Part shown: positions 7,195 to 11,864 of the stretch, in pieces
Position numbering within the stretch: the stretch's first letter is position 1
Layout of the letters: each line of letters begins with the position of its first letter
Source of the DNA: a virus
Strand: one strand, 5' to 3'
IMG/VR virus record: IMGVR_UViG_3300002488_000016
Span: 1 to 31,586 of that record
DNA: 31,586 nucleotides
Program-made: the position numbers and the translations under genes
Notes under the pieces: generated by a model
The model's database searches: none
The model's input: only the letters and a program-made list of their open reading frames with translations
What the model was told of the DNA's origin: nothing

Positions 7195-10100
7195 TTGTCA
7201 GACACACCTCCTAATGATAATGTTGATAATTCTAATTTAAGACTTGATCAACAAAAATATGGTGATCTCAATCCTCAGATCAGGCCTAAATCCTATAAGC
7301 CTGTTCGAACTTCTTACAGTAGTCGTATAGGTGAAATAAGAAATGCTCTTAATGAAAGAGTCAAAGACAACGAAACTGAAGGAGTAAATGAGTTTTTAGC
7401 TCGTGTATTGAGAGTTGAAAATAAAAATAATGATAACCAAGATGATTCTGGAGTTATTAATTGGTTTGGATCTTTGTTTGAAGATGAGAAAGTAACACCT
7501 CCTGTAATTACTGCAATTATTGATGCTGACGTGCACGCACTGGCCTGGGGTCGAAGCGGCGTAGGGCACCCAGATTTTATTTTACCAAACGATAATGGTC
7601 AAGGTGGAAGCGCAAACGCTAATGATATAATTAATAAAATCAGAGATGCGCATAAAGGCAAATTTACAGCTCCGAATAACGGCGTTCCTGTTCCAAAAGT
7701 CGGAGAATTAGTTTGGGTAACTTTTTCTGACTTAGAAAATAGAAAAGACGGAGTTTATTTAAGGCCACTAATAGATCGCGATAACAATTCAGATGTTGAC
7801 AGTAATTCACAAGCCGGCGATAATAATTCAAAAAAAGATCCGTGCAATAAACTAAAAAGTAAGAGACCAAAAGGAAGAAGTACTAGAAATAGAAACGCAG
7901 CTGCAGGATCGAGATCAAATAGAGGCAGAAAAGAAAGCATCGATGCTAAAAAAGAAAGGGGCCAACCTCCAATTGGAAAAGGTGTGTTTACCGGATTTCC
8001 AGATGTAAAAACACATAAAGTAAGCCAAGCACTACATTGTAGTTTAAATTTTGTTTGTTATACAGGCCTAAAACAGGATAAAGACGGCAATATAGAATCT
8101 GCCAATATAAGTAAAATAAAAAAATTCGCTAAGAAATACCATAAAAATGGAATAAGAACTTATATTATGGGCTACCCTGCTTATGGCCACGAAGAACAAT
8201 TTTTAGCTAAACTTTTTTCGTTGGCTAACTCTGGTGATGCAATTGGTGTAATATTAAACCTAGATCATTATTATGGCGGCAAAGCTGCTGAAAGTCCGTA
8301 TGAGAAAGAAAATTATCTAATGAGCGAGTTTAAAAAATACGCTGATAAGAAAAATTTTGCCACTGGCTTGACAGCAACTGATATTGCGGCCAATCCAAAT
8401 ATACCTTGGAAGATATTTGCAGAACCTAAAACAGGTGTTGATTTTGCAATACCTCAAGTTTTTGCACAAGAATATAACTCTTTAAGAGATCAACAGACAG
8501 AAAAGACTGCTCCAACTCCCCCTCCGGAAGCCTCGGAGGGACAGCCAACTTCTTTTGATAGTTTGTTACCTGGAACGTATCACGATATCGCTGAGATTGC
8601 CCAACTTCCCGAAGGATTTTTAGAAAAATGGGACTCTTCAACTGGGTTTAATTCTGTGGGTGGAGAAAATTCTGATTTTAATGTTCGTAGTCTTTTCATG
8701 AAAGCCGCTGCAGAAATAGTAGAACAATATTGGAAACAGATACTTCCGGGCCAAAATCCTAAAGTATTCATTACTAGTCACCATCGTCCCGGCGCCGAAA
8801 AAGGAAATCATACTACTGGTGGTGCTTTTGATATAAGGATCGAACTTGGCGATCATCAAAGAGGCAAGGCACCAGTGTCTGATCGTGTGCCGGTGCTACA
8901 AACTTGGGCTAGCCTTAAAAAATTGCAACTTGCAGGAAGAATACCTCTTGGAGCTACCGGAATATATTTAAATACTGAAACGAGCGGTACAAAAACAGGA
9001 ATTAGCGGCCTACGACCTGATCAGGCCGGCAGTATTACCGGCGGTACTGGACTTAAGGCCGGCCCAGGAGGCTCTGCAGCACCGCATTATGATATGAGAG
9101 GGTTTTTGTATGTTGGAGGCGGTAAAACAAGAAACACAATATGGGTTAATCTAGACACGAATGCGGATGGAAAAGATGATATTAAAAGTTCTGCGACAGC
9201 GCGCTCACGTTTAAGAAAAGATGGTCTTGGCGAAGTTGCTGATTACCTTTATCGAGACGATGGCACCTGGGCAAACGATGGTAATTATACCGATGGTTAC
9301 TTACCCGCCGTTGGACCGGGAGTGCAAAATATGCTTCAAGTTTTAGGCTTGGACAGTCAACCTCCAGTAGAGATTGAATCTGCAGCTGAGGGCCCATTTG
9401 TTAAAAAATTTATGGCTTGGAAACAAACTGGATTTAAACATATTGTTCCTGGATTAGGTATGATAGGTGATTCTCCAAATCCAAATGGATGGATTCCAGA
9501 TGCCTATAATACTGTTCATAAGTCTCCTGCGCGCATGAGAGAAGACGCAACCTGGACGTTTACTTCTGTAAAGGATGCGTTAGGCACATCAATGGCTAAC
9601 GCTGCTATATGGTGGGACTGGGAGGGCGCTAGCCGCACAGCAGTAAACTGGCCAGAAAAAAGATGGGATGTCATACGAGAATTAGGTGATGCGATCGCCA
9701 CCGCACAAAAATTAAACAAAATTAAAAATTCATCAATTTCTCAAGCTGAAAAAGACAAAATAATTAATTGGCAGCTTGGAACGTTTATGAAGTCTAGTGA
9801 TAGTCCCGGCGAGGCAAAAACAAAACAACAGAAGAAAGAAGATCCTCCACCGGAGCCTCCAGAAGATAAAACTCCAAGTGAAACACCAGCAGAAGCAACG
9901 CCAACTCCAAGCGGTTTAACAGAAGAGAAAAGACAAGAAATACAAAACAATATTGACAACAGAACAAAGCAGTTGAAAGCAAAAGAAGCAGAGCTATCTC
10001 AACTCAAGACAGAGCTTACAAATGCGCAAAATGCTGGTACTAACACCGATACACAATTAGCAGCAATTAAAACAAAAACAGAGGAGATTAGACAAGAAGT

Positions 10101-10931: not shown

Positions 10932-11864
10932 ATGACAGATTTAGTAGATAAGACCGGATGGTCAAAGAAAACATTAGAGGCGTTTAGACGAGGCGCCAAA
11001 GGTATCGACAACTCAATTATGGCCGAAGGCCTGCCAATTTATAATGAGGCCGTAAATGAAATTGTAGAAAAAGGAAGAAACAATACTTATATAGTTTTGG
11101 GCCGCGACCGCCCCGGTAGCAAAACTTCTGGATACGGTGGTCTTGGAGCAAGTCACTGCGGTGCAATTAGTTTGGTCGCAGGCAGAAGAGGCCAGAAAGC
11201 AGCCGACATTGATGACAAAGGCAACATAATGTATGCTGATCCAAACCATAGAACGGACGCAGCATTTATTTATATTTCACAAAAAACAGATGTCGATATT
11301 AACCTTAATTTAGCAGATGGTAAAGTTGGAAACGCAATTGCAAAGTCTGCAGTTGTTCTAAAAGCGGATAATCTTCGTTTTATATCCAGGCAAGGTGTTA
11401 AGATAGTTACTGGAACAGATGATAAGTTATCAACAGATGGGCCATCAGAAGCAGTCTATGGCGTTGATATTATTGCTGGTAATAATGATAAGGATCTTCA
11501 GCCGATGGTAAAAGGTGATAATTTGATTGAGTGTTTGGGAGAACTTAAAGAAGAAATATCAAAATTAAATGGAGCTTTGACAGGTTTTGTAAATTATCAA
11601 AAAGACTTTAATTTAGCAACTTTAAATCATTATCATATTTCAAGCTGGGCCCTGGGCCCGACTTCTCCAACAATAATCACCCCCGGAGATCCTTTGAGCA
11701 CCCAAGGGCCAAAAATAATTAAAAAACAAACAGAGAGAACTCTTAGAACTCTATCTAATCAAAGATATAATTTAAATCGTCTTGAAACAACTTATCTTCG
11801 TAGAGGCCACGCAAAAGATGGCAAAACAAATTATATAAACTCTTTATATAATAATGTAAACTAA
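10932..11864 (+). CDS. Probable baseplate central spike / structural protein
   Basis: A 310-residue protein starting two bases after the hub/lysin stop, with GGAAG ahead of ATG 10932. The N-terminal ~50 residues are helical (TLEAFRRGAKGIDNSIMAEG). The centre is Gly/Asp-rich and beta-like (NTYIVLGRDRPGS, HCGAISLVAGR, DAAFIYISQKTDVDINLNL, VVLKADNLRFISRQGVKIV), the pattern of short hydrophobic strands joined by turns seen in beta-helical tail spikes. The C-terminal ~80 residues are polar and helical (LRTLSNQRYNLNRLETTYLRR). T4 gp5 carries its beta-helix spike in the same chain; here the spike may be a separate gene right after the enzyme. That is inference from fold pattern and position; homology was not tested. 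Confidence 0.65.
   Translation: MTDLVDKTGWSKKTLEAFRRGAKGIDNSIMAEGLPIYNEAVNEIVEKGRNNTYIVLGRDRPGSKTSGYGGLGASHCGAISLVAGRRGQKAADIDDKGNIMYADPNHRTDAAFIYISQKTDVDINLNLADGKVGNAIAKSAVVLKADNLRFISRQGVKIVTGTDDKLSTDGPSEAVYGVDIIAGNNDKDLQPMVKGDNLIECLGELKEEISKLNGALTGFVNYQKDFNLATLNHYHISSWALGPTSPTIITPGDPLSTQGPKIIKKQTERTLRTLSNQRYNLNRLETTYLRRGHAKDGKTNYINSLYNNVN

Follow-up and report, generated by a model that had tools for sequence, protein, structure and literature searches.

A probable two-gene division of gp5-like hub and spike functions in a clade of uncultured phages

The virus record IMGVR_UViG_3300002488_000016 of the IMG/VR collection comprises 39,129 bases, of which a stretch of 31,586 nucleotides was analysed here and is referred to as the window. 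Two neighbouring genes in the window fairly probably encode, for a T4-like baseplate, a cell-puncturing device in two parts, namely a hub and enzyme protein resembling gp5* of phage T4 and, as a separate product, a spike resembling gp5C. The first open reading frame (ORF) occupies positions 7195-10929 of the plus strand, starts with TTG and specifies 1244 amino acids (aa); the second, at 10932-11864 on the same strand, starts with ATG and specifies 310 aa. Two bases separate the stop of the hub ORF from the start of the spike ORF, and the two ORFs lie in different frames. A sequence-only reading of this DNA had singled out these ORFs and suggested that gp5-like functions are divided between an OB-enzyme protein and a separate probable spike; the coordinates match, a sister contig and dozens of further contigs carry both ORFs, and the proposed division is supported and conserved across a large uncultured clade. 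The genes, and the motifs that are likely to be their ribosome-binding sites, are as follows.

7181..7187, + strand: AAGGAGG, likely ribosome-binding site for the hub gene, at a distance of 7 bases from the TTG (from sequence)
7195..10929, + strand: hub/lysin gene, 1244 aa, with several enzyme-like domains behind an OB-like N-terminus
10920..10925, + strand: AGGAAG, likely ribosome-binding site for the spike gene, within the final hub codons (from sequence)
10932..11864, + strand: spike gene, 310 aa (195 relatives in viral contigs)

Both ORFs can be regarded as genes, since the sister contig L001 (122.7 kb) carries the two of them (the hub 98% identical, the spike with one substitution in 310) and since dozens of contigs have relatives of both at low identity. 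Relatives of the spike in viral contigs numbered 9 by a single-protein search and 195 by an alignment search, the best 80 of the latter being retained; 88 loci (L001-L009 and L011-L089) were examined, representing 83 distinct protein sequences from many metagenomes. In all 88 the relative of the 310-aa protein is a separate ORF, 289-599 aa in size. The longest of these ORFs, L027 (8299-9837, 512 aa), L063 (8140-9939, 599 aa) and L066 (8509-9933, 474 aa), have about 160-290 additional N-terminal residues. An iterated profile of the hub N-terminus was applied to the 79 loci whose upstream DNA extends to 1.5 kb or more; 67 of them have an ORF that carries this domain, in 64 directly upstream of the spike and in the remaining 3 with one ORF between, and in none of the 79 was the domain fused to the spike. 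The short gap and the change of frame are also what would be expected if a single gp5-like gene had been broken by an assembly or sequencing error. Such an artefact is ruled out as the cause of the split, having next to no probability left, by the identical arrangement in 88 of 88 loci with 83 distinct sequences from many metagenomes, and a plausible ribosome-binding site moreover precedes the spike gene. Among 50,697 phage records, tblastn found no relative of the spike, either with the window protein (E <=0.01) or with three other members (E <=1).

The monomer fold of the 310-aa protein is predicted with confidence. AlphaFold2, supplied with a 76-row alignment, gave a model with a predicted local distance difference test score (pLDDT) of 90 and a predicted template modelling score of 0.76, in which the following elements can be recognized.

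11061..11510, + strand: beta-rich part of the spike, residues 44-193 (AlphaFold2 monomer, pLDDT mostly >90)
11514..11624, + strand: hairpin helix 1, residues 195-231 (AlphaFold2 monomer)
11628..11636, + strand: HYH (an HxH motif), residues 233-235, at the start of the inter-helix loop; probable metal-binding tip (alignment, model and analogy)
11691..11798, + strand: hairpin helix 2, residues 254-289 (AlphaFold2 monomer)
11838..11861, + strand: C-terminal strand ending YNNVN, residues 303-310 (model and alignment)

The loop between the helices (residues 232-253) is less confident, with pLDDT 56-76, and the final strand spans residues 303-309 in the model. The pairing of the two helices into a hairpin is suggested by the order of the elements and by the hairpin folds that VIA-align placed over residues 186-308. 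The sequence-only reading had described this protein as beta-patterned and as a beta-helix; the strands within 44-193 and a beta-rich part bear this out, whereas residues 195-289 are modelled as a long helical hairpin bearing the HxH, so that the protein is not simply a beta-helix. Conservation is seen at the C-terminus (S304 in 74 of 76 rows, N307 in 64, N310 in 66) and at the HxH. This motif is present in 82 of the 88 loci; in the alignment, 71 of 76 rows have it in register and every row has H235. The motif lies between the two hairpin helices, 75 residues before the C-terminus. By analogy with the spikes of Milano, P2 and phi92, the HxH probably binds a metal ion, and its position would correspond to the tip of the spike.

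A probable link to single-chain spikes comes from related phages. The Microcystis phage Mel-JY01, the Flavobacterium phages immuto and the uncultured LR756508 each have, upstream of gp25, a single ORF that looks by eye like an OB domain with a spike behind it. The N-terminal part of this single-chain family matches a gp5 OB profile with E 3.9e-4, a value obtained without a shuffle control. The half that follows the OB domain aligns with the 310-aa family by hhalign at E 9.7e-5, over window residues 39-251, and at E 1.5e-4 when the comparison is made with 76 rows. The best of 60 column shuffles reached 0.013, the reversed alignment 0.022 and four other alignments 0.17-0.77. There is, accordingly, moderate support from sequence profiles for homology between the 310-aa family and the post-OB half of the single-chain proteins.

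It is conceivable that the 310-aa protein is another baseplate trimer, such as an adapter, a plug or a connector with a coiled-coil hairpin, and that the true spike lies elsewhere, for example in the 2476-aa product of the next gene. Almost one third of the model is helical and no solved spike was matched; the next gene, which corresponds to an ORF of at least 1500 aa after the spike in 71 of the 88 loci, has no assigned function. This explanation is nevertheless unlikely, given an HxH between the helices in 71 of 76 rows, a profile similarity to the post-OB half of the single chains that includes the segment just before the helices, and the fact that in 64 of 79 loci the protein is encoded immediately behind the OB ORF.

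The N-terminal domain of the hub protein is probably a gp5-type OB fold. The N-termini of 38 members aligned with a profile of 11 gp5 OB domains at hhalign E 0.0017, the best of 100 column shuffles giving 0.019 and the reversed alignment 0.32; against T4 gp5 alone the similarity was not significant (0.076). The PHROG family phrog_430, 'baseplate hub subunit and tail lysozyme', was matched by 1 of 41 members with E 0.0028, uncorrected for the 41 tests, and the Phage_base_V OB domain was weakly matched by 1 of 41 with E 0.092. The seed of the family profile included the near-identical L001, and hence the E-value of the window protein itself is not independent. Structural neighbours of the OB model are mostly OB folds, among them several baseplate spikes (A-1(L), Mu, P1 and VgrG). 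The hub OB profile matched other ORFs and never a spike ORF, although a very divergent OB domain would be missed by it.

It is this N-terminal domain (residues 59-194) that the hub ORFs have in common, and the enzymes behind it vary. Six OB ORFs are only 178-210 aa long (L036, L037, L043, L047, L049 and L068) and leave no room for an enzyme; the OB protein therefore seems to have a role that is independent of enzymes. These observations also bear on the possibility that the 1244-aa protein acts as a virion lysin, either free or loosely attached, with an N-terminal attachment domain that is unrelated to gp5. The many enzyme modules would suit a lysin of this kind, as would the weak evidence for an OB domain in the window protein itself. 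An N-terminal domain that is common to the members while the enzymes change, six members too short to carry an enzyme, which renders a pure lysin role unlikely, and a match to the gp5 OB profile that beats 100 of 100 shuffles together make this possibility a distinctly improbable one. Consecutive OB-type ORFs were encountered at three loci, with three in L082 (4200-8815) and two each in L085 (1528-4128) and L055 (5065-7379), which suggests duplication of the hub gene.

A number of results weigh against the reading of the pair as a split hub and spike. On the hub side, an OB ORF was undetected in 12 of the 79 scored loci, and the AlphaFold model of the OB domain alone is poor (pLDDT 58), which, together with the profile E-value given above, leaves the OB-like part named in the sequence-only reading as probable only. 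Foldseek returned no significant match with this model, its structural neighbours have VIA Z scores of at most 6.6, a level that the tool calls common among unrelated folds, and the comparison with the OB domains of the Mel-JY01 and immuto single chains was not significant (E 0.03 and 0.052). On the spike side, the HxH is missing in 6 of 88 spikes (L005, L006, L007, L008, L009 and L046). A Foldseek search of the PDB with the monomer model gave no significant match, the only BFVD match below 0.001 was an unnamed 324-aa protein with 25% identity, and the rows reported by VIA-align lie mainly over the helical hairpin, where they represent common hairpins and are uninformative on the beta part. 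Direct homology of the spike to T4 gp5C received no support, either from the profile comparison (E 0.5) or from a comparison with a single sequence. The HHalign probability of the match between spike and single chains was 58% with the first set and 52% with 76 rows, and 1 of 60 block shuffles (25-column blocks) beat the real alignment, with 1.4e-6; the signal may therefore be due in part to a local motif.

Other searches with the spike were without result. Comparison by sequence with solved structures gave nothing convincing, Pfam recognized no family in the four spike members scanned, and in PHROG (E <=0.01) no family was matched by any of the 76 spike members, the window protein alone reaching E 0.17 and 0.25.

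The remainder of the hub protein is an assembly of enzyme-like regions and linkers, with the organization listed below, in which relatives are denoted by their locus numbers.

7369..7776, + strand: OB-like domain, residues 59-194, probable gp5-type adapter (family profile, hhalign and a low-confidence model)
7777..7944, + strand: basic linker rich in Gly, Ser and Asn between the OB domain and the enzymes, residues 195-250 (from sequence; presumably disordered)
7945..8514, + strand: first half of a TIM-barrel-like domain, residues 251-440 (phmmer to L015 233-411, L011, L013 and L029)
8500..9294, + strand: M15/VanY-like peptidase domain, about residues 436-700, between the TIM-like halves (phmmer to L060 260-425 and L015 816-1012)
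9460..9834, + strand: second half of the TIM-like domain, residues 756-880 (phmmer to L015 455-559)
9835..10149, + strand: Pro/Glu-rich linker and probable coiled coil, residues 881-985 (from sequence)
10282..10578, + strand: Amidase_2 domain (N-acetylmuramoyl-L-alanine amidase), residues 1030-1128 (Pfam PF01510, E 1.6e-10, above the curated cut-off)
10849..10916, + strand: perfect 15-bp tandem repeat in 4.5 copies, encoding a (PSPET)n C-terminal tail (repeat analysis)

The amidase was the sole Pfam match to the window hub protein at E <=0.001, and no lysozyme was recognized at E <=1. Of the enzymes that the sequence-only reading had placed on the hub, one, the amidase, is confirmed and two further enzyme-like regions are suggested. 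The M15/VanY-like region has a conserved H-x6-D and HYD, yet neither this domain nor its relatives in L060 and L015 were matched by Pfam, and against profiles of solved structures it gave only weak superoxide dismutase rows (E >=0.18). A PDB-profile search of the TIM-like region gave no match, and residues 881-985 matched many coiled-coil families weakly, all below their cut-offs. One of these hub domains appears to be nested in the other, the peptidase-like stretch (8500-9294) lying within the TIM-like one (7945-9834), because in L015 the two are found apart: there, by phmmer, the TIM-like halves are separated by about 44 residues and the peptidase-like stretch lies in the C-terminal part. 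Judged by their motifs, we take the pair to be an M15-type peptidase inside a TIM-barrel-like hydrolase, and both names are putative. Judged by their order along the chain, the enzymes can be joined to the OB domain only via the internal linkers at residues 195-250 and 881-985.

The enzymatic payload varies widely across the clade. Among 64 OB ORFs, and with the proviso that one member may count under several families, Pfam recognized VanY in 23, Amidase_2 in 7, Peptidase_M15_4 in 5, M23 in 4, and CHAP and GDSL in 2 each, along with one instance each of M15_3, GH19, muramidase, GH46, M15_2, SLT and DUF2272. The lineage formed by L005-L009 has short upstream ORFs of 387-405 aa and spikes without the HxH; in these upstream ORFs M23 was recognized by Pfam in L005 and L008, and HLHF was seen by eye in L007 and L009.

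The repeat tail at the end of the hub, noted in the sequence-only reading, is indeed a perfect array. Its proposed role as a disordered tether for the lysin can be ruled out, because the repeats follow the last enzyme, the amidase, at the chain end, are inconstant in number and are not conserved. Sister L001 has 2.5 copies where the window has 4.5, a two-unit difference that keeps the frame within hubs that are otherwise nearly identical. Of 73 OB ORFs, only 1, that of the window, has P/E/S/T at 60% or more of its final 40 residues; the sister L001 (55%) and L029/L030 and L053 (53%) fall below this threshold.

The genes that flank the pair place it in a T4-like baseplate region, since they include a gp55-like sigma factor and gp25-like and gp6-like wedge proteins.

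6135..6893, + strand: late sigma factor (gp55-like), upstream of the pair (phrog_234, E 1.8e-4)
19335..19712, + strand: gp25-like baseplate wedge protein, downstream (PF04965, E 2.5e-10; phrog_261, E 5.2e-18)
19753..21558, + strand: gp6-like baseplate wedge protein, downstream (phrog_219, E 4.2e-20)

The gp6-like protein is 34% identical to that of Mel-JY01 with 100% of the query covered, and by this protein the closest cultured relatives in the phage collection are Mel-JY01 (34%) and the immuto phages (32%). The gene directly after the spike (11892-19322) encodes the 2476-aa protein, to which the PHROG scan assigned no function. Ahead of the baseplate block, at 631-5391, there are four ORFs resembling nucleotide-sugar epimerases (phrog_540) and one resembling UDP-glucose dehydrogenase (phrog_9148); ORFs resembling sugar genes, as judged by eye from their first residues, likewise precede the block in L037, L043 and L049. 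The one link to a host is a genome contig, a 6.3-kb piece in a metagenome-assembled genome assigned to the Actinomycetes, which is insufficient for naming the host.

If the pair is a split puncturing device, it may operate as follows. The 1244-aa protein would correspond to the gp5*-like part, an OB adapter in the tail hub that bears a cartridge of wall-cutting enzymes hanging from it on flexible linkers. The 310-aa protein would be the gp5C-like spike on a separate chain, which would trimerise by itself through its shaft and hairpins and dock under the OB ring; its beta-rich shaft would be followed by the helical hairpin with the HxH at the turn, probably with a metal ion at the tip. Upon tail contraction the spike would lead and open the outer layer, and the enzymes would then clear the peptidoglycan. 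The stop codon between the two genes would here take the role of the protease cut in T4, and the tight spacing, along with a spike ribosome-binding site in the last hub codons, may favour matched synthesis of the two products. A wider proposal, that the whole clade possesses a gene-split device in which the OB hub is an exchangeable enzyme cartridge and the spike an enzyme-free one with a trimeric hairpin tip holding a metal by its HxH, such that enzymes are swapped freely beside a constant spike and the T4 maturation cut is replaced, is put forward tentatively, as a possibility falling somewhat short of an even chance.

In T4, the cut that separates gp5*, with the OB domain and the lysozyme, from gp5C, the spike, falls between Ser351 and Ala352 of gp5; both products stay in the mature complex (gp27-gp5*-gp5C)3, where the lysozyme is restrained while the spike is in place (PMC3004832). 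The tip is formed by the PAAR protein gp5.4 (PMC4576200). The window pair resembles this system in uniting an OB adapter, a wall enzyme and a spike in one device, and mature gp5* and gp5C are themselves separate chains (PMC3004832). It differs in that two genes stand in place of one cut precursor, in that the enzyme identified is an amidase and not a lysozyme, and in that the spike is predicted to contain a helical hairpin bearing an HxH and does not match the gp5C profile. The hub lacks a mid-chain lysozyme and a C-terminal beta-helix on the same chain, which ends instead in (PSPET)n, the presumed spike being the next ORF; the pair is thus not of the gp5 family by these tests of membership, and its mode of action most likely resembles that of the mature gp5 complex. 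The single chains of Mel-JY01 and immuto, whose post-OB half aligns with the 310-aa family, differ in carrying OB and spike on one chain, and in Mel-JY01 the next gene is a 'putative chitinase', so that the cut there falls between spike and enzyme and not between OB-enzyme and spike.

Spikes with metal tips offer a further comparison. In P2 gpV, Mu gp45, phi92 gp138 and Milano gp27, as in the 310-aa protein, an HxH is found near the end of the spike. These four proteins carry an OB domain on the spike's own chain. The 310-aa chain, in contrast, has no detected OB domain, and its HxH is situated at the turn of a helical hairpin well before the C-terminus. The Milano paper identifies its HVH with the motif by which, as had been shown, Fe is coordinated in the spikes of P2, phi92 and Mu (PMC10811340). 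That a wall enzyme can be absent from the spike and located elsewhere is already known from P1, in which the gp5 needle has OB and beta-helix on one chain and an SLT domain resides on the tape measure protein (PMC9024508). P1 therefore resembles the present arrangement in having spike and wall enzyme on different proteins and differs from it in that OB and beta-helix share a chain and are not encoded by separate genes (PMC9024508). For phiCD508 it is reported that no wall-enzyme domain was found and that the needle showed no beta-helix (PMC11948020). In the literature searched, represented in part by excerpts, no description was found of an OB domain and enzymes on one gene with the spike on another, which is not proof of absence.

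Were this reading correct, the covalent bond by which T4 first joins hub adapter to spike, and which it then cuts, would be dispensable, and the reason for the cutting of T4 gp5 would become testable by comparison. It would also help to name two unannotated protein families of uncultured phages, and it would provide a natural system in which many wall enzymes have been exchanged on one adapter beside one constant spike.

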